NCBI GenBank assembly: GCA_903884655.1
Contig: CAISFO010000033.1
Span: 62,001-126,000 of the forward strand
DNA from: an uncultured Holophagaceae bacterium
GTDB lineage: Bacteria > Acidobacteriota > Holophagae > Holophagales > Holophagaceae
DNA length: 64,000 bases
Direction of reading: 5' to 3'
The position numbers were made by a program, and so were the translations under genes. This document shows positions 15,019 to 31,935 of the stretch, one piece after another. The notes below the pieces were generated by a model that saw only the letters and a program-made list of their open reading frames with translations, was not told where the DNA came from and searched no databases. Position 1 is the first letter of the stretch, and each line of letters begins with the position of its first letter.

Positions 15019-18000
15019 TCAGGTCACAAAGGCATGGGCAGCTTCACTGAAGCGCTCGAATTCGTCGAGCAGGATTGGCAACCCGGCGGCCAGGGAGGCG
15101 AGGTCTCCGGCCAGGAGCGTCTGCTCCAGTTTCTGGGCCTGGAGGAACAAACCCCTGCCCCCAACCGTGACACTGGATCCGGCCAGGGAATGCAGCAGCT
15201 GCCCGACCACTTGGGGATCGGGAACCGTCGCAGCGTTCTCGATTTGCGTGAGGATGGTCGGGGCGGCCACCAGAAAGGTTTGCAGAATCTCGGCAGCAGC
15301 CTTCTGGTTCCCCATGAGGCGTCCCACGAAGTCCTCACTGTCGAAGGCGGGGAACGGCGCCTCCCTGGCCATGGCCCCAGCCGGTGCCGGTCGGTTGCTG
15401 GCGACAGGAGGCACCCCGAGGACCGGCAGGTGCCGTTGCAGGGCCTCCAGCAGGAGCGTTGGCTCGATGGGCTTAGAGAGGTAGTCATCCATGCCCGCAG
15501 CCAGGCACCACTCCCGGTCCTCGGTCATGGCGTGGGCCGTCATGGCCACGACGGGTATCTGGGGGTTCAGGACCCCGGACGCCGGCTTCCTCAGAGTGGC
15601 GGTGGCGGTCAGGCCGTCCATCACCGGCATCTGCACATCCATCAGGACGAGGTCGAAGGCCTGCCTCCGCAGCGCCGCGAGGGCCTCCTGGCCATCGGCG
15701 GCGACGGTCACCTGGACTCCCCACATATCAAGCAGAGCCACAGCGCATTCCACGTTGACCCCATTGTCCTCGGCCAGCAGGATCCTAGCACCCGCCAGCT
15801 GCGGGTTCGGTCTGCTGCAACTCTGCTCCTGGGCAGGCGACCCATGCTGGTTACGGGGCTGCAAGCCAAGCCTGGCAGTGAACCAGAACTCGGAGCCCTT
15901 GCCTGCTTCGCTCGTGACGCCGATTTCCCCACCCATCAGGCCGGTGATCCTGCGGGAGATGGCCAGCCCGAGACCCGTGCCCCTGTGCAGCCGCGTGCTG
16001 GAGGAGTCCACCTGAGTGAAGTTGTCGAAGATGGACTCCAGATGGGCTGCAGCGATGCCGATCCCGGTGTCCTTGACGCTGAACCGGAGCAGGGTTTCCT
16101 GCTCAGCCAAGGCCACCAGGCCAACTTGGAGGGTCACCGCGCCGGCGTCCGTGAACTTGATCGCGTTGCCGATCAGGTTGGTAAGCACCTGCCTCAGGCG
16201 GGTCGCGTCCCCGCAGAGCTGCTCCCGGGTATCTGGTTGAACCGTGAAGCTCAGGTCCAGACCCTTCGCCCGGGCAGAGAGCTGGAAGGAGGCGTGCAGC
16301 TCATCCAGCAACGCCCGGAGGTCGAAGTCGGCCCTCTTCAACTCGAACTTGCCCGCCTCGATCTTGGACAAGTCCAGGATGTCATTGATGATCTCCAGAA
16401 GGGCCTTCCCGCTGGCGTGCGCCAACTCCGCCTGGCGGCTCTGCTTGGCGTCCAGGGGGCTCATCAGTAACAGATTGAGCATGCCGAGGATGCCGTTCAT
16501 GGGGGTCCGGATCTCATGGCTCATGTTTGCAAGGAACTCCGACTTCGCCTGGGTGGCCTTTTCGGCCTGGAGCGCCAGCTGGTTGGCCCGGTTCCTCTCC
16601 TCCAGCAGGCGGGCATTCGCGTCGACGTTTTCCGTGATGTCCGTCATGGCACCCACCATCCGGATGGGACGGCCCTCCAGGTCCCACTCCACCACCTTCC
16701 CGCGGTCGAGCACCCAGATCAGCTTGCCTGTCTCATGCCGCATGCGGTGCTGGCTCAGGAAGGGCGTTCCGTGAGCTAGGGTTGCCGCGACCTTCGCCAG
16801 GACCCCCGGGCGATCCTCCTCCACGATCTTCGACGCGAAGAAGTCATTGGGGTGCTCGATGTAGCTCTCGTCCAGTCCCAGGATCTGGCACCAGCGGGCG
16901 TTGTGCCGCGCCCGGTCGAGGGAGAGGTTCCAGTCCCAGATCCCTTCCCCCGAGGCCTCGAGGGCGTAGGCCAGCCGCGATTCCAGGTCCAGGCGGGAGG
17001 CCTCCGCCTGTTCGAGGTGGGTCGTGTCGCGGAGGGTCACGATCAGCCCCGCCACCTCGTCCCCGCTGTAAAGCAGGTGGGTCGAATACTGCGCCGGGAA
17101 GTCCGATCCGTCTGCCCGCCGGAGCCTTGCGCCCTGCATGGTGATGCCTCCGCCATGGCTGAGCGCCTGGAAGACGTCGCAGGGGCCCGCCACCGGAGGC
17201 TGCACCGCTTCCGGCACCGGCTCCAGGACGGACCGGGAGGTCTTCCCTGCGCCCCTGTGCTCAAGGGCGGGCCACTGCAGCCCGTTGCAGGGCCGCTCGC
17301 AGGCTTCGCAGCTGCCGCGCAGACCGATGCCAACGAGGCGGTTCATGTTCTGGCCGAGCAGCTGAGCTTCGTGTTCGTAGCCCAGCAGCCGGACGCAGGC
17401 CGCATTGCAGAAGAGGCAGGCGCCCGTGCGGTCCATGCCGTAGATGGCCTCGTCCGTGGACGCCATCAGTGCCTGGAGCCGTCCCAACCGAGCCTCGGCC
17501 AGGCTGGCCTCGCCCTGCTTGGCCCTGGCCAGTGAATTCAACAGGAGGAAGACGGCGCCGCTGGCCAGCGCTCCGAGCAGCAGGATCGACAGGTGCCCCG
17601 TCCGCCCGAAGGAGACGCCGGCGCCGCTCAGAGGTCGAGTGCGCAGGGTCCAGACCCGGCCGGCCACGTTGAGCCGCTGCTCGGTCCCCAGAGCCGGTGT
17701 ATCGCTGCCCAGGCTACCCAGGCTTATCATCCGGTCCCCATCCCAGGCCGAGGCGCCGTCGAAGAGCTCCAGACCGATCTGCGGGGCCCCGGGGGCGGCC
17801 AGAATTGCGCTCATCAGGTCCTGCATCCGGAAGGCCATGTAAGTCCAGCCCAGGAGGGCCTGCCGCCTTTCCGGGACCGTGCCCAGGGGGGCGCCCCGCC
17901 GGTAGACCGGAGCGAAGAGCAGGGTCCCGGCCTGGACATTGGTGGAGAATTCCTGGAAAAGCTGCACCTTCCCCGAGAGGACGGTTTCTCCCGTGTCGCG

Positions 18001-18540
18001 GGCGCGGTGCAGCGCCTCCCTCCGAACGGGCTCGGCGAGCATGTCCCGGAAGAAGGCCTGCCGGTTGCGCTCGTCTCCGGGTTCGAGGTAGAGGATCGAG
18101 CTGATGCCGCCCTCTGGCGGCAGGGGTCCCCCGGGGATGACCTCATAGCGGGGGAAGCCTTCAGCCCGCATCCGCCGGACGTGGGCAGCGAGGGCTGCCG
18201 TGGGAATCCACCTGGCGAAGCCGAGCCCCTGGACGCCTTGATCGTTGCGACCCAGGTCCAGGCTCTGAACATAGCGTCGCCAGGCCTCCCGGTCAGGCAG
18301 AACGGGCTGCTGGGCGAGGAACGCGGCCGCGGCCGCGATGACCTGCCCGTGACGCTCCATTCGCAGGGCGATCCGGCTCTGCAGGTAGGCGGCATCGGCC
18401 AGGAAGCGCGCCTGGCTGCGCTGGGCCTCCTCATTCCGGATGTAGGCCCAGGCGGCGGTGGTCATGCTCAGGCCCACCAGCAGCCCCAGCAAGGGCTGCC
18501 CGTAGCGCATCAAGAAGGATGGTAGGCGGGACATCGGCAT
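15019..18540 (-). CDS. Hybrid sensor histidine kinase (CHASE - PAS x2 - HisKA - HATPase - REC - Hpt)
   Basis: [19 protein letters not shown]-box, [11 protein letters not shown]-box, [24 protein letters not shown] receiver, LHSLAGSS Hpt; N-terminal CHASE-like periplasmic domain. Confidence 0.93.
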
Positions 18541-18698: not shown

Positions 18699-18715
18699 AT
18701 TCAGGTCTCGTGCCA
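18699..18715 (-). promoter_or_regulatory. Putative -24/-12 element, copy A (upstream of hybrid kinase 15019-18540)
   Basis: Minus strand TGGCACGAGACCTGAAT. Confidence 0.55.
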
Positions 18716-18793
18716 GCTGGGACAGAACTTGCAACAAGCCGCATTCATTCAGTTGCGGATTCACAGAGCGGGACAGTGCCGGCCCTTTTCAGC

Positions 18794-18818
18794 GAATCCG
18801 GTACGACTTTCGCGATTC
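18794..18818 (-). promoter_or_regulatory. 25-bp putative activator site (UAS), copy A
   Basis: Plus strand GAATCCGGTACGACTTTCGCGATTC. Confidence 0.6.
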
Positions 18819-18949
18819 CGGGCTGCCTTTGGATGGTGGCCAGCTTCTAGCGACCGGGCCGAGGCCTCGGTAGCCCGGCGGCAGCTCCTTATGTCAACCT
18901 TCTCCTCACTGAGCCGAAGAGTGGTTGGACAGCCCGCCTGGAGTCACCC

Positions 18950-19360
18950 GTGGACATGCCCGACCGCCTCCGCCCGACCCGTCGCCAAGCCCTTGGGCTG
19001 CTGCTCGCCACCCTGCTGGCGGGCCCAGCCTGGGCCCAGGCCACGGCCAGCATTCCCATCTCCGTCCATATCCGGTCCCACGCGGCGGGCGGTTACGAGC
19101 CCTCCTCTGAGCTGCTCCTGCGCGGCCGGGTGATCGGCCGCGACCAGGGTCTGTTCCTGGTGCGCATCGCGGCCGGGGTTGTGCGGGTGAACGCGGGAGC
19201 ATGGCCTGGCCCCGAGCCCCGGGACGCCAAGGCCAGCCTCGAGATCCTCGCCGCCCGGCGCCAGGAGAACGGCCGCCAGATCTTCCTGGCCCGGGAGATC
19301 CGCACCGCCAGCGGCACCGTGGTCCTGCGGGACACCCAAGGTGTGCCCCTGCCCCGCTGA
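18950..19360 (+). CDS. Small secreted protein
   Basis: Signal peptide RRQALGLLLATLLAGPAWAQA; convergent with the pilus operon. Confidence 0.6.
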   Translation: MDMPDRLRPTRRQALGLLLATLLAGPAWAQATASIPISVHIRSHAAGGYEPSSELLLRGRVIGRDQGLFLVRIAAGVVRVNAGAWPGPEPRDAKASLEILAARRQENGRQIFLAREIRTASGTVVLRDTQGVPLPR

Positions 19361-20344
19361 TCAGTTGTAGGTCACGGTCACGGTAAAGGTCCCGTTGTAG
19401 TCCCCGTCCGCCTGGTTCGCGTTTACGCGCAGTGTGGCGCCGACCGTGAGTGCTTGGCTGCCCAGGGAACTGAGCGTTCCTGTTGGGCCCGGGCTACTCG
19501 TGAAGGTGTCCACGATCATGGCGGTCCCCGGACCGGTCAGGCTGATGGAAGAGGGCAGCCCGATGGAGTAGCCGGCACTGGCCGCGCCGGTAACGGTGAA
19601 GGCCGCGGCTGTTCCCACGTGGAGGCTGCATGAGGTTGGTCCGTTAGTTCCGCCGGTGAAACTCCGCACCCCGGCCGCGGTGAGCTGCACCGTGCCGGCG
19701 ACCGTGCCCCTGAAGACATCGCCAAAGTCCAGGCCGACGCTGCTGGTGATGCCGATGGCCTGTTCGACGACCACTGTGACATTGAAAACCTGAGTGTCTG
19801 TTTTATTGTAGGTGTTGGTGGTGTCCGTAGCCGTCAGGGTGAAGGAACCGGTGTAGGTGCCTGCGGTCGGGTTGGGCCCTAGGGAGATGGTTACGCCGAG
19901 GGTGATCGTGGGGGTGGTACCGGTGCCGCTGTTCCCAGGAAAAGTGCCGCTGGAACTTGACAGGATTACGGGGTTGGCCGAGAGGGAGGTGGCTCCCGAC
20001 TTGATCAGGCTGAAGGAGCCGGTGGTATTGGCCAGGGAATAACCGTGCTTGTGGGTTCCCGTCACGGTGAAGCTGCCCACGGCCACGGGCGCAGTCTGCT
20101 CAAGGCTTGTGCCGAGGGTGACGGTGCGGTTCCCGGAGGAGTTGAGGGTGACGGTCCCGGCGCTCGTGCCGGCGACGACGGTCCCGGCGTTGATGCCCGA
20201 GATCAAATTGATGACCGGGGCTGTCTGCGCTTTGAGGGGCAGCGCTGCCGGCGCAAGCAGCAATCCGAGGGCAAGGGTCCGGCAGAGGAAGGATCGGCAA
20301 CTCTCGGGGCGCATGGGGTTCCTCCTCGGGGACGGACTGGTCAT
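19361..20344 (-). CDS. Secreted pilin/adhesin subunit with DUF4402/SCPU-like domains
   Basis: Signal peptide; beta-rich repeats; C-terminal GDYNGTFTVTVTYN shared with the other subunits; overlaps usher stop. Confidence 0.7.
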   Translation of the reverse strand: MTSPSPRRNPMRPESCRSFLCRTLALGLLLAPAALPLKAQTAPVINLISGINAGTVVAGTSAGTVTLNSSGNRTVTLGTSLEQTAPVAVGSFTVTGTHKHGYSLANTTGSFSLIKSGATSLSANPVILSSSSGTFPGNSGTGTTPTITLGVTISLGPNPTAGTYTGSFTLTATDTTNTYNKTDTQVFNVTVVVEQAIGITSSVGLDFGDVFRGTVAGTVQLTAAGVRSFTGGTNGPTSCSLHVGTAAAFTVTGAASAGYSIGLPSSISLTGPGTAMIVDTFTSSPGPTGTLSSLGSQALTVGATLRVNANQADGDYNGTFTVTVTYN

Positions 20345-23058
20345 GGCTGCACCGGGGGAACCGGGGCGGGAAGCAGTATCAAATCCAGCCCGTCGATGAC
20401 CGTGCCGTCGGGCGCAATCCGGACTTCCCGGGGGGGCGGGACCTGGACCCCGAAGCGCCGGGCTTCCGCGGCCGAGACCTGGAGCCGGTAGCTGCCCGCC
20501 GGCAGGCCCGGCAGGGTGTAGAAGCCGTCGTAGGCCGTGCGGACCGTGCGGACCACCTGGCCCGCGGGGGTCGCCAGCTCCAGCGTGAAGCCCGGCAGCT
20601 CCTGGTTCCGGGGCTCCTGCTGCTGGTAGACGGTGCCGTTGAGCTCGCCCAGGACGATCAGGGGGAACTCCAGGGCCGTCACGTGGCCCGGCCGGGGGGT
20701 CACCCGGAGGCCAGGCGTGCTGGGCCGCATCAGGGGATCTTCCAGGCTGCCGGTGGCCACCGAGAGGTTGGCGTCCAGGCCGCCGCTAAGGTGGGTGAGG
20801 AAGGCCACGCCCTGCTTGTTGGTCGTGGCGGGCTGGGGCACCCCGTTCACCAGGAAGCGGACGCCCTCCAGGTCCTTCTCCCCGGGGTCCTGGCGACCGT
20901 TGCCGTTGCTGTCGATGAAGGCGTGGGCCGAGACCGCCCCCTGGCTGGCGAGGCCCTGGGCGTCGGCGGCGAGGCGCCCCTGGCGGGGCTCCCGGCCCAG
21001 ACCCAGACGGAGCGTGAGGCTCGCCGTAAGGTGGCTGAGGCTGGAGTAGCTGAAGTTCAGGCCGAGGCTGAAGGCGCCCTTGGACTTGTTGGCGCCGAGC
21101 TGGACCAGGGTCTCCCCCGTGGCCACGGTGTGGGTGAGGCCCGCCCGCAGGATCAGGGGCGCGAGGACCGGGGTCTCCGCTGTGAGGCCGAGGCTGGTCA
21201 GCTTCCGGCCGCCGCTCAGCTGATAGTCCGCCTGGCCTCGCAGCGAGAAGGCCTTGAACAGCCTGCTGCCCAGCAGCGACCCGGTGGTGCTGGTGGGCAC
21301 GGCGGCCTGGCCCCCAGTGCCTGAGGTCCGGGTGAGCTGGTTGGAGAGGAAGTAGCCCAGGAAGGAGGTGGAGAGTCGGCTGTAGAGGCTGTCAACCTCG
21401 CCGCCGGCCACGAGCTTGTCCTGGGTGCCGCCGACCTCCACCGTGAACCAGCTGCGCTCGAGGCTGGGCAGCTGGGCCGAAGCGTCGAGGCTGCTGCGGC
21501 TGCGCAGGGGGCCGTAGAGCGGGCGGAAGACCTCGCTGGTGAAGCCGCCCTGGAGTTCCGCGTGCTTGGCGTTCAGGCTGAGGGTGCCGAGCCGCGTGCG
21601 CAGGCCCAGCTCGGTCGCGGTCCCGCCCTGGCTGTCGCTGGCGGCGGTGAAGGCGGCCGACAGCGGCTTCCAGAAACCCTGGAGGCCCGCCTCGGTGTAA
21701 GTGTGGTAGGCGCTGCCGTCGAACTCGGCTCGGGCCAGGGCGAAGGTGGCCGACAGCTGCCCGGTGAGTCCGTAGCGGGCCTCGAACTGTGCCCGGCTGC
21801 CCAGGCCGGTCGGGTGGTCCCCCGCCAGCCGGTACTGGAAGACGCCCGCGGGGGTCTGGCTTGCGGCCACGTCGAAGCGCGCCACTTCCTCCCGCCGCTG
21901 GCCCTGGGGGCCGTAGAAGACCAGGCGGAAGTCATTCCATCCGTACGTGAGGGGCAGGTTCAGGAACTCGTACTGGCCGTCGGGGCGGGAGGTCTGGAAG
22001 GCCACCAGGGCCTGGTTCCGGTAGAGCTCCACCTGCCAGCCCGGGGGCAGGTCGCCCTTGAAGCTGTGCCGGTCGAAGGCGTTCGCCTGTTCGAGGGGGA
22101 AGTTGCTGACCAGCGCCCCGGTGCCGGCGCTGGGCAGGACCGTCAGGTTCAGGCCAGGGTTCAGGACCTGGCCGAAGGCGAATTCCGTGGCCTGCAGGGG
22201 GCCCAGGAGGCCCGCAGCGGGGTCCGTCCTCCCCAGGGTGGCCCGGAAGTCCGCCGGCCCGCCCTGGGTGTCCATGTTCGCGTAGAGGCTGGTGGAGAAG
22301 CCCAGCAGATCCCCGCTGAGGAAGGTACTGCTCTGGGCCTGGAGCCTTCCGCCGCGAGCAGACTGGGACTGGGCGTTCAGGGTCAGGGTCTCGTCAACAA
22401 AGGGGACCTCGATCAGCCGGTAGGGATCGGCCACCTTCGGGAAGGCCTGGACCTGGCGCTCGGGCTGGACCCGCCCCGCCTCCCGCTCGCGCTTCCACCG
22501 CAGTTGCAGGGGGAGCGGTTCCCGGGGCTTCACCGTGACGGTGGCGCGGCCTGGCAACACCTCGAGGGCGACGGGCAGCCAGGCGGCCAGCATCCGGGCG
22601 TCCACGTAGATGTCGTCGGCATGCAGCTCGATGAGGGAGCGGTCGAGGGAGGTCCGGACCCCCTGGATCTCCACGAAGCCCGCCAGGACGTCCAGGTGGA
22701 AGCGGCACTGCTCGTTGAGGAGGAAGCCGTCCGCCAGGCCCCGGCTGGGCTCCACCCGCACGCCCAGCTCCAGCAGCCGGCAGAGCTCGCCCAGGGGGAG
22801 CAGGTAGCCACTCTTCACCGAGAAGCCCGGGAAGGTATTGCTGAGGGTGGTCTGGTCGAGGCTCAGGGCGAAGAGGAAGACCTCCTCCTCGGGGCGGCTG
22901 ATCAGGGCGTCGGCCAGCAGCATGGGCGCTGCCAACCCGCTCGGCCCGCCGGTTCCAGTGGTTCCACCGCCGATAAGGGCGGCACCGCTCAGCAGGGCGG
23001 GCAGGCCCGCCTTTGCGAGGGCGCGGCCCCATGCGGAAGAACGCCGGATCAGTGGCAT
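20341..23058 (-). CDS. Outer-membrane usher protein (secreted/SCPU chaperone-usher family)
   Basis: 905 aa; usher-type segments (LPPGWQVELYRNQALVAFQTSRPDGQYEFLNLPLTYGWNDFRLVFYGPQGQRREE); C-terminal SdrB/CNA-like DSNGNGRQDPGEKDLEGV. Confidence 0.9.
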   Translation of the reverse strand: MPLIRRSSAWGRALAKAGLPALLSGAALIGGGTTGTGGPSGLAAPMLLADALISRPEEEVFLFALSLDQTTLSNTFPGFSVKSGYLLPLGELCRLLELGVRVEPSRGLADGFLLNEQCRFHLDVLAGFVEIQGVRTSLDRSLIELHADDIYVDARMLAAWLPVALEVLPGRATVTVKPREPLPLQLRWKREREAGRVQPERQVQAFPKVADPYRLIEVPFVDETLTLNAQSQSARGGRLQAQSSTFLSGDLLGFSTSLYANMDTQGGPADFRATLGRTDPAAGLLGPLQATEFAFGQVLNPGLNLTVLPSAGTGALVSNFPLEQANAFDRHSFKGDLPPGWQVELYRNQALVAFQTSRPDGQYEFLNLPLTYGWNDFRLVFYGPQGQRREEVARFDVAASQTPAGVFQYRLAGDHPTGLGSRAQFEARYGLTGQLSATFALARAEFDGSAYHTYTEAGLQGFWKPLSAAFTAASDSQGGTATELGLRTRLGTLSLNAKHAELQGGFTSEVFRPLYGPLRSRSSLDASAQLPSLERSWFTVEVGGTQDKLVAGGEVDSLYSRLSTSFLGYFLSNQLTRTSGTGGQAAVPTSTTGSLLGSRLFKAFSLRGQADYQLSGGRKLTSLGLTAETPVLAPLILRAGLTHTVATGETLVQLGANKSKGAFSLGLNFSYSSLSHLTASLTLRLGLGREPRQGRLAADAQGLASQGAVSAHAFIDSNGNGRQDPGEKDLEGVRFLVNGVPQPATTNKQGVAFLTHLSGGLDANLSVATGSLEDPLMRPSTPGLRVTPRPGHVTALEFPLIVLGELNGTVYQQQEPRNQELPGFTLELATPAGQVVRTVRTAYDGFYTLPGLPAGSYRLQVSAAEARRFGVQVPPPREVRIAPDGTVIDGLDLILLPAPVPPVQP

Positions 23059-23957
23059 CAGGGCACGTCGAGGAAGCTTTCGGCCAACAGGGTGCCGCCC
23101 TCGGCGGGGGGCAGGCGGTAGGTCACCTTCAGGCGGCCAGCACCCAGGGCCGCGAGGCCCTTGGGGAGTTCGAGCGGCATGGCCGTCTTCCGGGTGGCAT
23201 TGGGCACGTAGACTGCGATGCCGGTGGTCTCGGAGACGGTCACCGGCGCCCCGCTGCGGGGGAGCCAGGTGGCCATGAGGTCCCCGTAGACCGACTGGTT
23301 GCCGGCCCGGTTCATGCGGAAGCGCAGGGTGCGGTCGGCGGGATCGTAGGCCAGGTCCGCCAGGGCCAGCTTCGCCGAGGTCTGGCCGTGGCGGAGGATC
23401 ACCGGAACCGCTAGGCAGTAGACCGGCTGGAGCCGAATGGAGAGGCCCTTCTTCGCACCGGGCTGGCCCGGGTCAGGGGGCTCCGGCGCGGGGGGCAGCC
23501 CCCGGAACTGTAAATAGAGCCGGTACTCGCCCTCGGGCAGGTCCGCCGGCTTGCGCACCTGCAGGCGGACCGTCTGGGATTCCTGGGCGCCGAGGACCAC
23601 CTCCCGGGGGGAGAAACGGATCAGGCCCGCCAGGTTCACGGCCCCAGGGGTGGTATCGAAGGGCTGTTCGGTGATGCCGCCCTCCTCGTTCATCTCCATC
23701 CGGATCAGGGCGATGCGGTAGGTGCCCGCCGCGAAGCCAGTGTTGGAGAGGTTCAGCTCGGCGGTGCGCTTGTGCATGTCCAGGACGACCCGGGCAGGGG
23801 CCACCAGCAGCTGTCCGGCGCCAGCGGCCGGGGCGGGCGCGGCCGGGCGAGTGGGGCTGGTCGGACCCGCCGGGGTCGGCAGGGCCTGAGCGGACAGCGG
23901 GCCCAGGAGCAGGGTCAAGGTCAGGAGCAGGTCGGCAGAGGCGGAAAGCAGGCGCAT
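23058..23957 (-). CDS. Periplasmic pilus chaperone (PapD-like)
   Basis: N-terminal Ig-like VAPARVVLDMHKRTAELNLSNTG... FSPREVVLGAQESQTVRLQVRKPADLPEGEYRLYLQF. Confidence 0.88.
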   Translation of the reverse strand: MRLLSASADLLLTLTLLLGPLSAQALPTPAGPTSPTRPAAPAPAAGAGQLLVAPARVVLDMHKRTAELNLSNTGFAAGTYRIALIRMEMNEEGGITEQPFDTTPGAVNLAGLIRFSPREVVLGAQESQTVRLQVRKPADLPEGEYRLYLQFRGLPPAPEPPDPGQPGAKKGLSIRLQPVYCLAVPVILRHGQTSAKLALADLAYDPADRTLRFRMNRAGNQSVYGDLMATWLPRSGAPVTVSETTGIAVYVPNATRKTAMPLELPKGLAALGAGRLKVTYRLPPAEGGTLLAESFLDVP

Positions 23958-24021
23958 GGCAGCTCGTTGCGGGAATGCACCCAGGGCCAGGGCCCCGGGT
24001 GCATGGGGTTTCGGACCTCGG

Positions 24022-24603
24022 TCAGTTGTAGGTGACGGTGACGGTGTAGCTGCCGCTGTAGTCGCCGTCGAGGGTTCCGGCGGGGACGTTCAGGGTGCCG
24101 CCCATCCGGAGCTGGCACTTGGAGCTGGCGATGTCTGGCAGCTTGGCGCTGGTCCCGGTGTTGCCATTGCCCAGGGCCGTCCAACTGTCTGCGCCGACGT
24201 TAGCCGTGGCGGCCGTCCAGGTGTCCACCGTCATGGTGCTGGTCGCACCACTCTGGCTGCTGGTGAGCGACGCCGTGGAGAAGGCGACGCTGAAGCTGGC
24301 ATTGCGCCGGCCGGAGACCACAATGTTGGCGCAGCTGGTGGGGTCGATGGTGCTGAGGCTCAGGCCCGTGCCGGTGGAGCTGATGGTGTTGTCGAGGGGT
24401 TTCAGGACCACGGTGCCGGCCGCAGAACCGGGGAAGACATCGCCGAACTGCATGGTCGCGGTGTAATCACCGAGCGTGATCGGGGTGAAGACCTTCGCGG
24501 TGATCGGGATGGCGCCCGAGGTGGCAGTGCCGGGGCCAGCCGCGAAGAGGGAAGCGCTGCCGACGACGAGCAGTGCGGTAAGAAGGTTGCGTGAACCACG
24601 CAT
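24022..24603 (-). CDS. Spore coat U (SCPU)-domain secreted pilin subunit
   Basis: Signal peptide MRGSRNLLTALLVVGSASLFA; C-terminal GDYSGSYTVTVTYN; RBS caggag upstream of ATG 24603. Confidence 0.85.
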   Translation of the reverse strand: MRGSRNLLTALLVVGSASLFAAGPGTATSGAIPITAKVFTPITLGDYTATMQFGDVFPGSAAGTVVLKPLDNTISSTGTGLSLSTIDPTSCANIVVSGRRNASFSVAFSTASLTSSQSGATSTMTVDTWTAATANVGADSWTALGNGNTGTSAKLPDIASSKCQLRMGGTLNVPAGTLDGDYSGSYTVTVTYN

Positions 24604-24703
24604 GAGGAACTCCTGAAGCAAGGTGCACCGGGTCGGTGCAGATTTGGGTTAGGTCTCCGGGAGGACGATCCTCCCTGGAACGGCCGCAGCCTTGCTTCCC
24701 TAT

Positions 24704-24720
24704 AATCACATCTCATGCCA
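24704..24720 (-). promoter_or_regulatory. Putative -24/-12 (sigma-54-like) element, copy B
   Basis: Minus strand TGGCATGAGATGTGATT; same position relative to the 25-bp palindrome as in copies A, C, D. Confidence 0.55.
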
Positions 24721-24799
24721 GGTCTGGATAAATCGATATGCTGTCTCATTCGTTTGTTTAGGCGCTTTTGTTTTTTGGACATTGACTGTCTTGTTCATC

Positions 24800-24824
24800 A
24801 AATCTGGTACGGCTTTCGCGATTC
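24800..24824 (-). promoter_or_regulatory. 25-bp putative activator site (UAS), copy B
   Basis: Plus strand AAATCTGGTACGGCTTTCGCGATTC. Confidence 0.6.
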
Positions 24825-24925
24825 CGTACGGGGCAGCGCCGAGGCCACTCCCGACACGAAAACGCCCTGGGCCGGGGCCCTGGGCGCAGGGAGTGCAGGC
24901 TACGGTTACCAACTCCACCCGCAGC

Positions 24926-26248
24926 TCAGACGATCAAGGGTTCAGAGTCCGGGAGAATCCAATCGAAGGCTGGACTGGGCGTTCCTGTGGCAGGGGTTGG
25001 CGTCCGCCTGGCGCTCCCGCAACCGCCAGATGCAGGCCAGCAGCGGAGGGGCTGAACGCGGGTGGAGGTGACTGCCCCAAGGGCCTGCCCTGTGTCTGGC
25101 AGGGGCAGGTAGAGGTGCAGCGTGGCGCCCCCATCCGCCGAGTTCTCCGCAAGCAGGGCGCCCCCGTGCCGATTCACGATGGCCTGGGCCAGGGTCAGGC
25201 TGAAGCCCCTGCCCCGCTGGTCCCCGCGCGCCTTGGTGGAGGCGCAGGGGCTGAAAATGATGGAGAGGATTTCCGGCGCGATGCCGGGGCCTTGGTCGGT
25301 GCAGGCCAGGTGCAGGTAGGCGCCGGGTACCAGGGGGAGAGCATCCGCTCTGCGGACCTGCCGGACCTTCCCTTCGATGCGGAGTGTGCCGGAGCCGCCC
25401 ATGGCCTCGATGGCATTGCGAGCCAGGATCTTGATCACCATCTTGATCTGAACCATGTTGAGCCGGAGGGCGGGCAGGCCCTCGGCGAACTCGGCGAATT
25501 CGAGGGCCAGCCGGCAGCTCGAGCCCCTGACCTCTTCGTCCCAGGCGGCGCTCAGGATGGACTCCAGGCTGTACGTGTCCTCGAAAGCGACAGCGCTCCT
25601 GCCAAGGAGTTCCAGCCGGTTGCCGAGTTCCCTGATCTCCGCCCAGGATGACTCGACCGTAGTCAGTAGCTCGAACACCGCGTCGGGGTCGTTCCTGCAT
25701 TCCTTGGCCAGGTCCACGAAGAGCATCAGAGCCTGGAGCAGGTTGTTGTAGTCATGGGCCATGCCATCGGCGAAAACCCCGAGGATTGCCTCGAGCTGCG
25801 CCTGGCGCTGGTCCAGCCCCTGCGGCTGCGGCTCGGTTACCCGGGTCCGCCGCAGCAGGTCCGCGCAGTGAAGCAGCGCGGCATTGAGCTGATCGGGGTG
25901 CAGGGGCTTCAAGAGGTAGCGGTTCACCCCGAGGGCGATGGCCTGGATGAAGACCGAAGGCTGATCGAGGGCCGAAGTAACGATGACTGGCAGGTGCGGG
26001 GCCTCGGAGCGGACAGCTTCGATGAAGCCCAGACCGTCCAGCTTCGGCAACATCAGGGCGGTGATGATCAGGTCCGGCCGCGCGCGTCGAAATAGCTCGA
26101 GACCCTCGGCGCCGTCCGCGGCCACGCAGAGTCGACCGACCTGGGGCCGGAGGTGTTCCGAGGCCATTCGCCGGACCGTCGGCTCGTCCTCTACGTAAAG
26201 GACGGTGAGCCCAGCGAGGAAGACCTGGTCGGCAGCCAAGGAGGACAT
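24926..26248 (-). CDS. Receiver-histidine kinase protein with degenerate receiver
   Basis: REC-like N-terminus (TVLYVEDEPTVRR...DLIITALMLPKLDG), MAHDYNNLLQALM H-box, GPGIAPEILSIIFSP ATPase. Confidence 0.85.
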   Translation of the reverse strand: MSSLAADQVFLAGLTVLYVEDEPTVRRMASEHLRPQVGRLCVAADGAEGLELFRRARPDLIITALMLPKLDGLGFIEAVRSEAPHLPVIVTSALDQPSVFIQAIALGVNRYLLKPLHPDQLNAALLHCADLLRRTRVTEPQPQGLDQRQAQLEAILGVFADGMAHDYNNLLQALMLFVDLAKECRNDPDAVFELLTTVESSWAEIRELGNRLELLGRSAVAFEDTYSLESILSAAWDEEVRGSSCRLALEFAEFAEGLPALRLNMVQIKMVIKILARNAIEAMGGSGTLRIEGKVRQVRRADALPLVPGAYLHLACTDQGPGIAPEILSIIFSPCASTKARGDQRGRGFSLTLAQAIVNRHGGALLAENSADGGATLHLYLPLPDTGQALGAVTSTRVQPLRCWPASGGCGSARRTPTPATGTPSPAFDWILPDSEPLIV

Positions 26249-26408
26249 GGGGCGCTCCTGCAGGGAAAGGGCGTGCGGGGAGGCAGGCTCCTCGCCTGGC
26301 CCAGGGTAGGCTTGGGCCAGGTGCTGAGGCGCCTGGCGCCTTCCTAGTCCGCACCAGAGACACGGCTCTGGACCTGGGGGGGGGCGGGAGCCGTGTCGGG
26401 AGCGGAAC

Positions 26409-26969
26409 CTAGTTGTAGGTCACGGTCACCAGAAAACTGCCGTTGTAGTCGCCGTCCAGGGTGGCGGCCGGAACCGTCAGGGTTCCGCCCACCCGGAGGG
26501 CGATGGTCGCGCCAACGCTATCGGGTAGCGTGCCGTTGCCGCTGGCCAGGGCCGTCCAGGTGGTACCAATGTAGGTCGCACCAGTGAAGTTGTTCACCGT
26601 CAGGGAGGAGGTAGCCCCAATCTGGGTGCTGGTGAGCGTCGCGCTGGAAGGCAGCCCAACGCTGAAGGAAGCGGCGCGCCGACCCCCGACCGTTAGGCTG
26701 GCACAGCTGACGGGGTTGATTGCCCCAGTGGTAAGCCCCGTACCAGTGAAGGTGCGGAGGTTGGTGACGGGACTCATGGTCACAGTGCCGGAGGCGGTGC
26801 CAGGGAAGACGTCGCCGAACTGCAAGGTTGCGGTGGGGCCCGTGAGTGTGATCGGCACAAAGATGTGGGTGCCCGCCGAGACGGCGCTCGACGTGGCGGC
26901 GCTCTGGGCGAACACGGGGACGCTGCCGAGGACCAGCAGCGCGGGGAGGAGGTTGCGTGGCCCACGCAT
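26409..26969 (-). CDS. SCPU-domain secreted pilin subunit (paralogue of 24022-24603)
   Basis: MRGPRNLLPALLVLGSVPVFAQ signal; GDYNGSFLVTVTYN C-terminus; homologous leader. Confidence 0.85.
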   Translation of the reverse strand: MRGPRNLLPALLVLGSVPVFAQSAATSSAVSAGTHIFVPITLTGPTATLQFGDVFPGTASGTVTMSPVTNLRTFTGTGLTTGAINPVSCASLTVGGRRAASFSVGLPSSATLTSTQIGATSSLTVNNFTGATYIGTTWTALASGNGTLPDSVGATIALRVGGTLTVPAATLDGDYNGSFLVTVTYN

Positions 26970-27069
26970 GGGGGACTCCTGAAGCTAGGTGCACCGGGTC
27001 GGCGCGGGTTTCGGGTGGGGGCTCCAGGAGGATGGTCCTCGTGGAGTGGAGACTGCCTTGTCTTTCCTT

Positions 27070-27086
27070 ATTCACGCCCCATGCCA
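27070..27086 (-). promoter_or_regulatory. Putative -24/-12 element, copy C
   Basis: Minus strand TGGCATGGGGCGTGAAT. Confidence 0.55.
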
Positions 27087-27164
27087 GCTTGGTTGGAACC
27101 TACAACCGTATGTATTGATTCAGTTGTGGATTAAGGCCGCTGGACTTTGACTGTCCAGTTCAGC

Positions 27165-27189
27165 GAATCAGGTACGGCTTTCGCGATTC
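27165..27189 (-). promoter_or_regulatory. 25-bp putative activator site (UAS), copy C
   Basis: Plus strand GAATCAGGTACGGCTTTCGCGATTC. Confidence 0.6.
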
Positions 27190-27221
27190 CGGTCCGGACT
27201 TCCGCTGGTGGCGAGGCACCC

Positions 27222-28436
27222 CTAGGACGCCTGGGCCGAGGCCCCGACCTCCCGGGTGAGCTTGCTCGCGGCGAGGTTCTCTCGGGGACTGGGCACTGGC
27301 AGGAGGAGGTGCAGCGTGGCACCGCCGCCCGTCCTGTTCTCGGCCAGGAGGGCGCCCGCATGCTGCCTCACGATGGCCTGGGCCAGGGCGAGGCTGAGAC
27401 CCATGCCCCGCTGTTTCCCGCGCGCCTTGGTGGAGGTGTAGGGGCTGAACATGATGGGCAGAATGCCAGGGGCGATGCCGGGGCCCTGGTCGCTGAAGCT
27501 CAGCTGGAGGTAGTCCCCGGGCGCCACCGGTACAGGCTCCTCCGGCATGATCCGGCGAACCTTCCCCTCGACCCGGAGCGTGCCTGATCCGCCCATGGCC
27601 TCCACGGCGTTGCTGGCCAAGATGCCCACAGCCTCCTTCATCAGGTGCCGGTTGAAGCTGACCCAGGGCAGCTGCTCAGGCAGGACCACCTCGAGCTTGC
27701 AGCCGGAAGTGCCGACCGAACTGTCCAGGGCCTCGCGCAGGTGGGTATCAAGGTTGTGAGTGTATTGGAAGGATATCTCACCGGGCTGGAGAAGACCCAG
27801 CCGGTTGCCGAGTTCTCGGATCTCCTCCCAGGCCGATTCGGCTGAATCCAGCAGCTGAAAGACCTGGTCGGGGTTGGTCCTGGATCGCTTGGCGAGGGCG
27901 ACATCGATCATCACCGCCTGGAGCAGGTTGTTGTAATCATGGGCCATGCCGCCGGCCAGGACCCCCAGTGCCACCTCATGCTGAGTCTGGACCAGGGCCA
28001 GTTTCTCCCTTTCCATGGCCGTCCGTTCCGAGGCCACCCGCAACTCATGCGCGCAGTGGAGCAGCGCGGCCTCCAGGTGGACGGCGCGCAGGGGCTTCGG
28101 GAGGAAGCAACTCACGCCAATTTCAAGACACCGGAGAAGAACTTGGGTCTGTTCGCGGGTTGTGGTGAGGATCACAGGAAGACTGGGGGCCTCTGCCCGG
28201 ATGGCTTCGATCAGAGCCAGGCTGTGGGATTCCAGCCCGAACAGGTCGCACACGAGGATGTCGGGCCGCTCGCCCAGGAAGACCTCGAAGCCCACAGCCT
28301 GGTCCGCGGCGAAGCAGAGGCGCCCCACCAGGGGTTTGAAAAACTGCGCTACCAAGTTTGGGGTCCAGGGTTGGTCCCCCACATAGAGCACGGTCAATCC
28401 AGAGAGATATCGCTGATCCGCTTGATTCGAGGGCAT
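27222..28436 (-). CDS. Receiver-histidine kinase protein with degenerate receiver (paralogue of 24926-26248)
   Basis: TVLYVGDQP...PDILVCDLFGLESHS receiver-like; GMAHDYNNLLQAVM H-box; GPGIAPGILPIMFSP. Confidence 0.85.
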   Translation of the reverse strand: MPSNQADQRYLSGLTVLYVGDQPWTPNLVAQFFKPLVGRLCFAADQAVGFEVFLGERPDILVCDLFGLESHSLALIEAIRAEAPSLPVILTTTREQTQVLLRCLEIGVSCFLPKPLRAVHLEAALLHCAHELRVASERTAMEREKLALVQTQHEVALGVLAGGMAHDYNNLLQAVMIDVALAKRSRTNPDQVFQLLDSAESAWEEIRELGNRLGLLQPGEISFQYTHNLDTHLREALDSSVGTSGCKLEVVLPEQLPWVSFNRHLMKEAVGILASNAVEAMGGSGTLRVEGKVRRIMPEEPVPVAPGDYLQLSFSDQGPGIAPGILPIMFSPYTSTKARGKQRGMGLSLALAQAIVRQHAGALLAENRTGGGATLHLLLPVPSPRENLAASKLTREVGASAQAS

Positions 28437-28544
28437 GGCCGAACTCCGGCAAGGATGGGGTTGGCGGGAGCCCTGCCCGCCCGGAAGAGAAAGACCAGCT
28501 CCATTGGGGCGCTCCTCAGCAGAGGAAGGGCTGTCAGAAACATT

Positions 28545-28561
28545 ATTCAAGTCTCATGCCG
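28545..28561 (-). promoter_or_regulatory. Putative -24/-12 element, copy D
   Basis: Minus strand CGGCATGAGACTTGAAT. Confidence 0.55.
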
Positions 28562-28639
28562 GGGTTGGCTGGCCCTGCAAGCACTCGTCCCCATGGAGTT
28601 AGGTTTCCCTGGCGGCAGGCAACGGCCAGCTTGCTCCTG

Positions 28640-28664
28640 GAATCTGGTACTGCTTTCGCGATTC
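28640..28664 (-). promoter_or_regulatory. 25-bp putative activator site (UAS), copy D
   Basis: Plus strand GAATCTGGTACTGCTTTCGCGATTC. Confidence 0.6.
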
Positions 28665-28867: not shown

Positions 28868-30358
28868 TCAGGCGATGGAGTCCCTGTGCCTGGCATCAGG
28901 TCCATCCTTCGCAATTCGGGCTAGGGGCACGCCGTAGCCCTTCAGCTTCGTGTAGAGGGTGTTCCGGTGGATGCCAAGGGCTATCGCGGCCGGGTCAACC
29001 TTGAAGCCCATCGCCTCCATGACCCGGAGAATGTATCTGCGCTCCACCTCCTCTAGGGTGAGCCCCGTGGCCTCCAGGAGGGCCTCTGGGCCATTCATGG
29101 TTCTGGCTCGGCTCCCACCCAGGCTGAAGTCCTCGGCCTCGAGGACGGGTCCCCGGCGGGTGAGGATGGCCGCTTCCAGGGCATTGTGCAGCTCCCGGAG
29201 GTTCCCCGGCCAGTCGTGGCTGCGGAGGCGGTGTTCGGCTCCGCTTGAGAGCTGGAGCGGCCCCACCTCCCACCGCGCGGCAATCTGGGTCAGGATGAGC
29301 CGTGCCAGCATCAGGATGTCCTCTCGGCGATTCCTGAGCGCCGGCAGAGTCAGCTGGATCGTGCTGATCCGGTAGTAGAGATCCTCCCGAAAATGTCCGG
29401 ATGGCAGCAGCTCCTCCAGGTTCTGGTGGGTGGCCCCGATCAGGCCGAAGCTCACGGAGCGGCTGCGAGTGTCGCCCAGGCGGTGGAAGGTCTTCTCCTC
29501 AATGGCCTTCAGGATCTTGGCCTGCACGTGCAGGTCCAGGTCCGCGATCTCGTCGAGGAAGAGGGTCCCCCGGTCCGCCAGCTCGATCATGCCGACCTTG
29601 GGTGCCGAGGCCCCAGTGAAGGCCCCCTTCTCGTGGCCGAAGAGCTCGCTCTCCAGGAGTTCCCGACTTAGGCCTGCACAGTTCATCTCAACGAAGGCGT
29701 GCTCGCGGCGGCGGGTCTGCTGGTGGATCCACCTCGCCAGGACGGTCTTGCCAGTGCCCGTCTCTCCGTAGAGGAGCACAGGGACCGATACCGCCAGGAG
29801 CTTCCTGACCCGGGTCTCCAGTGCCCGGATGGCTGGGCTGACCCCATAGAAGGGATTGAGGCTCGGCTTGGGCTCCAGGTGGGCGGGCGCACGGGCGACC
29901 AAGTGCAGGTGGGCCTGCTCCAGGGTGCGCTCGCAGAGTGCCAGCAGCGCCATCGGATCCACGGGTTTCACGAGGAACTGGTCCGCCCCTTCCTTGACGA
30001 GAGACACCGCCAGCTCGATGGAAGAGGAACTGGTGATGATGATGGGGGGAAGCGTCTCGCCCCGCTTGATGCAGCGCAGAACGTCTGAGGCGGTGCCATC
30101 CGGGAGCTGGTAGTCCAACAGGATGATCTCGGGCCGGAACCTCAGCAAGGCTTCGAGAGCCATGGCCACCGAGGCCGCACACTCGACTTGATAGGGCCTG
30201 CCTTGGAAGATCCTGCAGAGGAAGCGGGACTGGGCAGGCTCATCTTCAACGATCAGGACCTTCGTCAAGTGCCTCGGCTCTGGGAGGCCCAGGCTGGCGG
30301 CGACGACCCCGCCCCTTTGGTTCTCAGGCTCAGCGGGTGATCTCTCGGTCGTCAGCAT
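28868..30358 (-). CDS. NtrC-family sigma-54-dependent response regulator (REC-AAA+-Fis HTH)
   Basis: Receiver LLDYQLPDG; Walker A GETGTGKT; GAFTGA sigma-54 contact loop; Fis-type HTH IALGIHRNTLYTKLKGYGV. Confidence 0.95.
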   Translation of the reverse strand: MLTTERSPAEPENQRGGVVAASLGLPEPRHLTKVLIVEDEPAQSRFLCRIFQGRPYQVECAASVAMALEALLRFRPEIILLDYQLPDGTASDVLRCIKRGETLPPIIITSSSSIELAVSLVKEGADQFLVKPVDPMALLALCERTLEQAHLHLVARAPAHLEPKPSLNPFYGVSPAIRALETRVRKLLAVSVPVLLYGETGTGKTVLARWIHQQTRRREHAFVEMNCAGLSRELLESELFGHEKGAFTGASAPKVGMIELADRGTLFLDEIADLDLHVQAKILKAIEEKTFHRLGDTRSRSVSFGLIGATHQNLEELLPSGHFREDLYYRISTIQLTLPALRNRREDILMLARLILTQIAARWEVGPLQLSSGAEHRLRSHDWPGNLRELHNALEAAILTRRGPVLEAEDFSLGGSRARTMNGPEALLEATGLTLEEVERRYILRVMEAMGFKVDPAAIALGIHRNTLYTKLKGYGVPLARIAKDGPDARHRDSIA

Positions 30359-31935
30359 GCCAGCCTCAGCGTCGCGAGGTAGCGTCGCAGGTCCTTCACG
30401 CTCATGGGCTTGGGCACCAGGGTGACATTCGCATGGGTCGCGGCAAGATCCATGGCGGCCTGATCAATCAGGCCCGTCGAGATCAGGATCGGGAGGCTGG
30501 GCCGCAGCGCGCGGAGGCGCTGCAGGGTCATTGCGCCGCCCATGACGGGCATGTTCATGTCGAGGATGACCGCATCGGGTTCGTAGCCGGCTTCAAGCTT
30601 GGCCAGAGCTTCTTCGCCATTCAGGGCGTGTTCCGAGCTGTGACCCAGCATCTTGAGCGTCCGGGACATGACCTGCTGCAGCACCACGTCATCGTCCACC
30701 ACCATGATCTTGAGGCTGAGGTTGTCCGCTTTCTCCGCTGGGCCGGCGCCGTTCTCGGCGACTCGGCCCCTTGGGATGGACGTTGGGAACCGCAGCGACA
30801 CGCAGGTCCCCTGGTCCAGTTCGCTTTGGATTTCCATTTGCCCGTGGTGGGACCTGACGGTGGCATAGGCCATTGGCAGCCACATGCCTAAACCCTTTCC
30901 CTTGGTCGTGAAGAGGGGCGTCAGAGCCTTCCCGCTGATCTCCTCGCTCATCCCGGTCCCCGTATCCTCCACCTGGGCTTCGACCCAGCCGGTGACTGTG
31001 TTGCGGGTCCGGATGGAAAGGGTTCCTGGGCCAGGCATGGCCTCAAGGGCATTGTTCACCAGATCCTCAAGCAGAGAGGCCAAGGCACCCAGGTCGCCGG
31101 CGATGGGTTGCAGGTCAGCAGCCAGGCCCAAGTCTGCGCGGACACGACCAGTCAAGGTCGGGTCCCGAAGGGACTGGATACAGTGCTGGACCACAATGTT
31201 CAGGTCGACGTCCTCCTGTTCGAGGAAGCGCCGGTTGGCGAAGTTGCACAGGCTCCAGGTCAGCTCCCGACCCTTGTCGCAGGCCTTCACGATGGTCTTG
31301 AAGGCGGGGTGGGCCGAGCTGTCCGGGGGCTGGATTTCCACATGGGCTGAGGCAAGGGCGAGGATGACGCACAACAAATCATTCATTTGGTCGGCAACTT
31401 CGCCCGCCAGGATTCCCAGGCTCTCCATCTTCTGGTCTTGATAGGACAGGGCGGCCAGGCGCTTTCGTTCGGTGTTGTCGGCACGGGTCCCGACCATGAC
31501 CAGCGGCTTGCCGTCAGGTGCTCGCAGGAGGACGCGGCCACGGTCATGCACCCAGAGCCAGCGGCCGTCCTTGTGCTTCATCCGGCACTCAAAGTCGTAG
31601 TAGGGAGTCTCACCCGCGAAGTGCCGCTCGAGGAGTCTGTTGGATTGTTTCAGCTCCTCTGGATGGCAGAGTCCTTCCCAGGTCTTGATGCTGACGGGGG
31701 CCAACTCAGCAAGCGAATAACCCAGGCACTGGGCCCACTGCTCATTGAAGACCGCCTGCCCCGTCGGTATGTTCCATTCCCAGGTGCCAAGCTGGCTGCT
31801 TTCGAGGATGCGCTCCATCCGCCGCAGGCCTTTGAGCCTTTGGGAGGCTGGGGCAGCGCCCCATTCTGGAGGGGACTCGCAGGTCATTTTGGGTGACCCA
31901 CGAAACGACCTGGATTGTTTATTCAAGGCCTGCAT
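30352..31935 (-). CDS. PAS-histidine kinase-like-REC hybrid protein lacking the H-box histidine
   Basis: MESLGILAGEVADQMNDLL (cf. GGVAHDxNNLL); REC DAVILDMNMPVMGG; start/stop overlap with the NtrC-like gene. Confidence 0.85.
   Translation of the reverse strand: MQALNKQSRSFRGSPKMTCESPPEWGAAPASQRLKGLRRMERILESSQLGTWEWNIPTGQAVFNEQWAQCLGYSLAELAPVSIKTWEGLCHPEELKQSNRLLERHFAGETPYYDFECRMKHKDGRWLWVHDRGRVLLRAPDGKPLVMVGTRADNTERKRLAALSYQDQKMESLGILAGEVADQMNDLLCVILALASAHVEIQPPDSSAHPAFKTIVKACDKGRELTWSLCNFANRRFLEQEDVDLNIVVQHCIQSLRDPTLTGRVRADLGLAADLQPIAGDLGALASLLEDLVNNALEAMPGPGTLSIRTRNTVTGWVEAQVEDTGTGMSEEISGKALTPLFTTKGKGLGMWLPMAYATVRSHHGQMEIQSELDQGTCVSLRFPTSIPRGRVAENGAGPAEKADNLSLKIMVVDDDVVLQQVMSRTLKMLGHSSEHALNGEEALAKLEAGYEPDAVILDMNMPVMGGAMTLQRLRALRPSLPILISTGLIDQAAMDLAATHANVTLVPKPMSVKDLRRYLATLRLAC

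Follow-up and report, generated by a model that had tools for sequence, protein, structure and literature searches.

The locus analyzed here resembles several described systems in part. In the PrsK/PrsR-RpoN regulon, sigma-54 promoters with predicted upstream enhancers are located at PEP-CTERM genes, such as Aquincola pepA with TGGCAC...CTGCTT (PMC9850573), and in Desulfovibrio vulgaris the regulons of two-component enhancer-binding proteins (EBPs) have been reconstructed by comparative genomics (PMC4641369). A description of sigma-54 or RpoN in Geothrix or Holophagaceae was not found in the literature. We analyzed a window of 64,000 nucleotides from an uncultured Holophagaceae bacterium (Acidobacteriota) and define in it a complete candidate sigma-54 circuit. 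On the one hand, this circuit shares with the PrsK/PrsR-RpoN system an NtrC-type response regulator with a kinase, candidate sigma-54 promoters, and surface-protein targets. On the other hand, its proposed targets comprise a chaperone-usher pilus together with kinases instead of PEP-CTERM proteins, and its -12 element reads GA. The best NCBIfam match of the EBP is TIGR02915 (PrsR), but the score of 315.9 bits lies far below the family cut-off of 502.6, so that by score the EBP is not PrsR. As in D. vulgaris, conservation pointed to an EBP site that precedes a sigma-54 promoter next to the EBP gene; here, however, most relatives have the site partly within the end of the EBP coding sequence, and the lineage has A as the second -12 base. 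PilR/RpoN-dependent pilA promoters show the same -24/-12 element shape in the genus of the window, but the window system has another activator and site, and concerns chaperone-usher, not type IV, pili. The locus resembles archaic chaperone-usher (Csu) pili in that the chaperone model matches CsuC best and that the gene order is subunit, chaperone, usher-like protein, and two-domain probable adhesin. It differs in that the window subunits, labeled SCPU in the preliminary description, are DUF4402 by Pfam and that the usher is recognized by no model. Since DUF4402 stands in place of SCPU, we consider that the locus works like a Csu pilus locus rather than being one.

The window holds four modules, each composed of a 25-mer and a 17-mer element. 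We consider it very likely that these are enhancer-promoter units of one small sigma-54 regulon driven by the adjacent EBP. Judged from sequence comparison, this would be a new candidate regulon with a lineage-specific -12 element, and its variant features would be the GA at -12 of the lineage and an operator overlapping the coding end of its activator. The elements are as follows.

28893-28917, minus strand: decayed 25-mer GAATTGCGAAGGATGGACCTGATGC with 4 mismatches, inside the 3' coding end of the EBP gene
28640-28664, minus strand: 25-mer, candidate upstream activating site (UAS) for the REC-kinase gene at 27222-28436; position kept in the paralogous cluster L012/L020
28545-28561, minus strand: candidate sigma-54 -24/-12 promoter CGGCATGAGACTTGAAT
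27165-27189, minus strand: 25-mer, candidate activator site for the DUF4402 gene at 26409-26969 and the kinase after it
27070-27086, minus strand: candidate sigma-54 promoter TGGCATGGGGCGTGAAT
24800-24824, minus strand: 25-mer, candidate activator site for the DUF4402-chaperone-usher-DUF4402 operon
24704-24720, minus strand: candidate sigma-54 promoter TGGCATGAGATGTGATT, 117 nt before the first codon of the DUF4402 gene
18794-18818, minus strand: 25-mer, candidate activator site for the CHASE hybrid kinase
18699-18715, minus strand: candidate sigma-54 promoter TGGCACGAGACCTGAAT

The genes concerned are the following.

30352-31935, minus strand: PAS-histidine kinase-REC protein, overlapping the EBP start; likely partner kinase
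28868-30358, minus strand: NtrC-type enhancer-binding response regulator (EBP) with REC, AAA+ with GAFTGA, and Fis-type HTH (HTH_8); proposed activator
27222-28436, minus strand: REC-HATPase kinase (the "third kinase"), proposed target
26409-26969, minus strand: DUF4402 pilus-subunit-like protein, proposed target
24926-26248, minus strand: REC-HATPase kinase, probably in one transcription unit with the preceding DUF4402 gene
24022-24603, minus strand: DUF4402 subunit, first gene of the pilus operon
23058-23957, minus strand: PapD/CsuC-like periplasmic chaperone (AlphaFold model and Foldseek; weak PapD_N)
20341-23058, minus strand: usher-like outer-membrane protein with a carboxypeptidase-regulatory-like C-terminal domain; usher by position only
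19361-20344, minus strand: two-domain DUF4402 protein, probable tip adhesin
15019-18540, minus strand: CHASE-PAS-HisKA-REC-Hpt hybrid kinase, proposed target; in relatives, its orthologue adjoins the EBP

The preliminary description had located the four 25-mers and, on the minus strand, the four 17-mers correctly: pattern search recovered all of them, and dinucleotide shuffles expect zero 25-mers. The 25-bp site takes the form of a dyad, GAATC-N15-GATTC, with GAATC at the 5' end of three of the four copies and AAATC in the second. In the direction of the genes, the layout is 25-mer, about 79 bp, 17-mer, and gene. The start-to-end spacings of 79, 80, 79, and 79 given earlier are right and correspond to 104, 105, 104, and 104 bp from the start of the 25-mer to the -24 GG, in the order of window coordinates; across six modules this distance is 102-105 bp. 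It also holds that all four modules precede minus-strand genes near the EBP. The 17-mer alone is not rare, with 30 matches against 28 expected at 2 mismatches. The two strands of the window together contain the pattern YGGCAYGN5TGAW five times, with four of these occurrences at the paired offset. The non-random feature is thus the pairing at fixed spacing and not the 17-mer by itself. An additional exact 17-mer match at 27935-27951, inside the third kinase, encodes the H-box of that kinase and is due to chance. The element GGCATGAAGTCTGATT is also present on two short contigs of the same genome (L015 and L016; G000:C21 and C59), where the 25-mer was not found nearby. Window positions 27141-27157, just downstream of a 25-mer, contain another imperfect dyad, TGGACTTTGACTGTCCA; it is found in three of six modules and is absent from the module at 28640.

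Modules of this kind could also represent a dispersed repeat or a duplicated segment with no regulatory role. The module copies retain residual similarity outside both elements, which indicates that they probably arose by duplication, and fragments of the EBP tail are duplicated in relatives. However, conservation is concentrated in the 25-mer and the 17-mer: any two of six modules are 84-96% identical in the 25-mer, whereas their spacers and flanks are mostly 45-65% identical and reach 83% for the most similar two modules. The spacing is held despite this divergence of the spacer and despite one relocated site. Moreover, pattern searches of the 3.92-Mb genome in 98 contigs with the 25-mer returned only the four copies at up to 3 mismatches, in one orientation and all at promoters. 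We therefore regard a mere repeat as very improbable. In viral contigs, the exact 19-base core gave two matches without the rest of the site, which is about the level of chance.

Regarding the 17-mers as sigma-54 promoters, GG at -24 stands in a TGGCAYG context in all six modules and in 16 promoters of relatives. GC at -12, 10 bp after the GG, is absent; all modules read GA, which describes a sigma-54-like promoter with a variant -12 element. This had been put forward as a caveat, and the caveat dissolves when the genus is considered. In a family-wide search with TGGCAYGN5TGNWT, in which the -12 base was left free and the TTGN sites of the genus were counted by hand, this base was A at 15 sites, C at 1, G at 2, and T at 3, and one match was located just before pilA. 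A scan of pilA loci (L236-L265) revealed that nearly every pilA gene of the genus has an element of the TGGCAC-N5-TTGAT type about 50-64 bp upstream of its start. The pilA gene of the genome itself (L255) carries TGGCACGAGACTTGATA 51 bp before its ATG, in the same -24/-12 form. The pilA promoters read GA in 29 of 35 cases in the genus, that of the window genome included (5 GC and 1 GT), and GA in 15, GC in 12, and GG in 1 case in other genera; a few loci overlap and enter the count two times. Accordingly, GA is the norm of the genus and no argument against sigma-54, and searches for the canonical TTGC would miss sigma-54 promoters in Holophagaceae. The count of the canonical TGGCRYN5TTGCW in this genome was uninformative, with 8 matches against 8 in a reversed-pattern control.

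The genome encodes a single RpoN (L099:406-1974; Sigma54_DBD E 8e-56) with an intact RpoN box, ARRTVNKYR. The helix region reading the -12 element, HESTISRVVKAKTIHTPQGLF, differs from enterobacterial RpoN at several positions. This difference is common to all family members checked, and the region is nearly invariant across the family. Within the family, the helix change could not be tied to GA versus GC, because the helix is nearly identical in all sampled genera and the pilA promoters are mixed outside the genus.

The EBP carries an intact GAFTGA loop, in agreement with the preliminary description. At nine related loci, the EBP coding sequence extends at its 3' end into the site, which makes a clear case of a putative operator overlapping the coding end of its own activator. 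In a paralogue, the intact 25-mer is positioned within the last codons of the EBP gene, at working distance (L020:9109-9133). In the window, the copy in the EBP tail is decayed, and an intact 25-mer lies about 250 bp beyond it, exactly at the working distance of 79 bp from the promoter. We consider this relocation direct evidence for a distance constraint.

Among 78 family genomes, the 25-mer is present in only two, both with this EBP type (81-100% identical). The second assembly, G040, has three near-identical copies and two further copies on a contig of the paralogous cluster, whose EBP is 81% identical. In G040 (CAIMQW01), contigs identical to the window locus occur, and its RpoN is 89% identical versus 100% for one EBP, so that a mixed bin or a transfer is probable. 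Since G040 may be a mixed bin, its near-identical copies are not independent evidence. In Chloracidobacterium and in a deltaproteobacterial MAG, which have EBP relatives with 46% identity, a matching module was not found near the EBP gene.

Eight genomes encode an EBP 59-63% identical to that of the window. They show the same layout with a different activating site (TCYAGAWTCYAGA pairs); the EBP adjoins DUF4402 genes and a CHASE kinase that is 45-48% identical to that of the window, and TGGCACGGGACTTGATA-type promoters precede DUF4402 and chaperone genes. Their site is typically TCCAGAATCCAGA, with a second copy, e.g., TCCAGATTCTAGA, 20-28 bp later, and the EBP gene ends, with SRIQK-stop, in the first half-site. 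This paired 13-mer site starts at -104 to -106 from the promoter, and the 25-mer of the window at -103. These sites bear on the alternative that the 25-mer is itself a sigma-54 promoter facing the other way, as the plus-strand TGGTACGGCTTTCGC with its GG-N10-GC within the 25-mer had suggested. The equivalent site of the relatives, at the same position, lacks GG-N10-GC and contradicts an outward promoter. In addition, such a promoter would have no plus-strand gene ahead of it and would yield RNA antisense to the preceding gene, and the 25-mer has a dyad and sits at normal enhancer distance. We therefore reject this alternative of the preliminary description and give it hardly any weight.

The recognition-helix region of the EBP differs in step with the site, IHRNTLYTKLK versus IPRSTLYVKLK. 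Based on this comparison, the activator and the site co-diverge and can be considered a candidate pair. Another regulator, either a different EBP or a repressor, might instead use the 25-mer in front of true sigma-54 promoters, and the genome offers many EBP-like candidates (123 at first look; 9 matches at or below 1e-60 among 20 scored). However, such a regulator would leave three observations aside, namely that the 25-mer is confined to the two assemblies with this EBP type, that the site changes when the EBP recognition helix changes, and that it overlaps the 3' end of the EBP gene itself. Accordingly, we consider another regulator unlikely and the adjacent EBP the preferred activator. The promoter precedes the pilus genes in nine of nine EBP-bearing genomes, versus none of 18 genomes with an orthologous chaperone-usher locus and no EBP above 50% identity there, in which no sigma-54 site scoring at least 20 was found upstream of the operon (Fisher p 2e-7, uncorrected for the kinship of the genomes).

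Stand-alone 3'-end fragments of the EBP, containing only the HTH, were observed with the same promoter directly before extra DUF4402 genes in three genomes (G017, G041, and G042).

L218:9368-9577: HTH-only EBP fragment, open frame of 129 aa
L219:5693-5902: HTH-only EBP fragment, open frame of 129 aa
L229:755-964: HTH-only EBP fragment

From their location before DUF4402 genes, it seems that the EBP tail is copied together with the site and the promoter, as one cassette. We tentatively propose, at somewhat less than even chances, that sigma-54 of Holophagaceae reads a changed -12 element (TTGAW, not TTGCW), linked to the family-wide change in the -12 helix of RpoN (HESTISRVVKAKTIHTPQG versus enterobacterial HESTISRVTTQKYLHSPRG), and that the operator recognized by an activator is contained in the 3' coding end of the activator gene, with regulator and operator duplicating and diverging as one cassette. 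A published study attributes to the C at -12 a role in limiting transcription that does not depend on an activator (PMC4551910). If the reading of TTGAW is true, the lineage would therefore need other means of checking such basal transcription. The co-diverged activator/site pairs also form a natural set of material for studying how Fis-type recognition helices read DNA.

The preliminary description had modeled the 25-mer as a UAS and the 17-mer as a minus-strand sigma-54 promoter, and this model is well supported by comparative evidence: geometry, co-divergence, co-occurrence, the GA of the genus, and an rpoN gene with an intact RpoN box. A conserved dyad is common to the proposed targets and precedes the promoter by a distance in the range of about 80-150 bp. 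Enhancers usually lie about 100-150 bp upstream (PMC7057263), and the center of the 25-mer, at about -116, falls inside this range. We infer the following order of events. The adjacent PAS kinase and/or the hybrid kinases under control of the EBP would probably phosphorylate it, and the EBP would then bind GAATC-N15-GATTC, the center of which lies about 116 bp upstream of the transcription start. Through a DNA loop, the AAA+ ring of the EBP may open the sigma-54 polymerase waiting at TGGCAYG-N5-TGAW, and the expected output is the assembly of a Csu-like pilus from the chaperone-usher operon with its DUF4402 subunits, together with three signaling kinases. In this way, one activator probably switches on a surface-pilus operon and its signaling kinases together via sigma-54. 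Considering that three kinases are among the targets, the circuit would regulate its own signaling inputs.

As for the target genes, the starts of the CHASE and third kinases have to be shortened to near 18540 and near 28436, respectively, because their longest open reading frames span the promoter. The usher-like protein has no Pfam usher match, and its predicted structure has a pLDDT of 48; the carboxypeptidase-regulatory-like C-terminal domain is present in all five homologues. The AlphaFold model of the chaperone gave CsuC of the Acinetobacter Csu pilus (5d6h) as the top Foldseek match with an E-value of 1.7e-10. The other best matches of this model were PapD-type chaperones, and PapD_N was matched weakly by all eight chaperone homologues.
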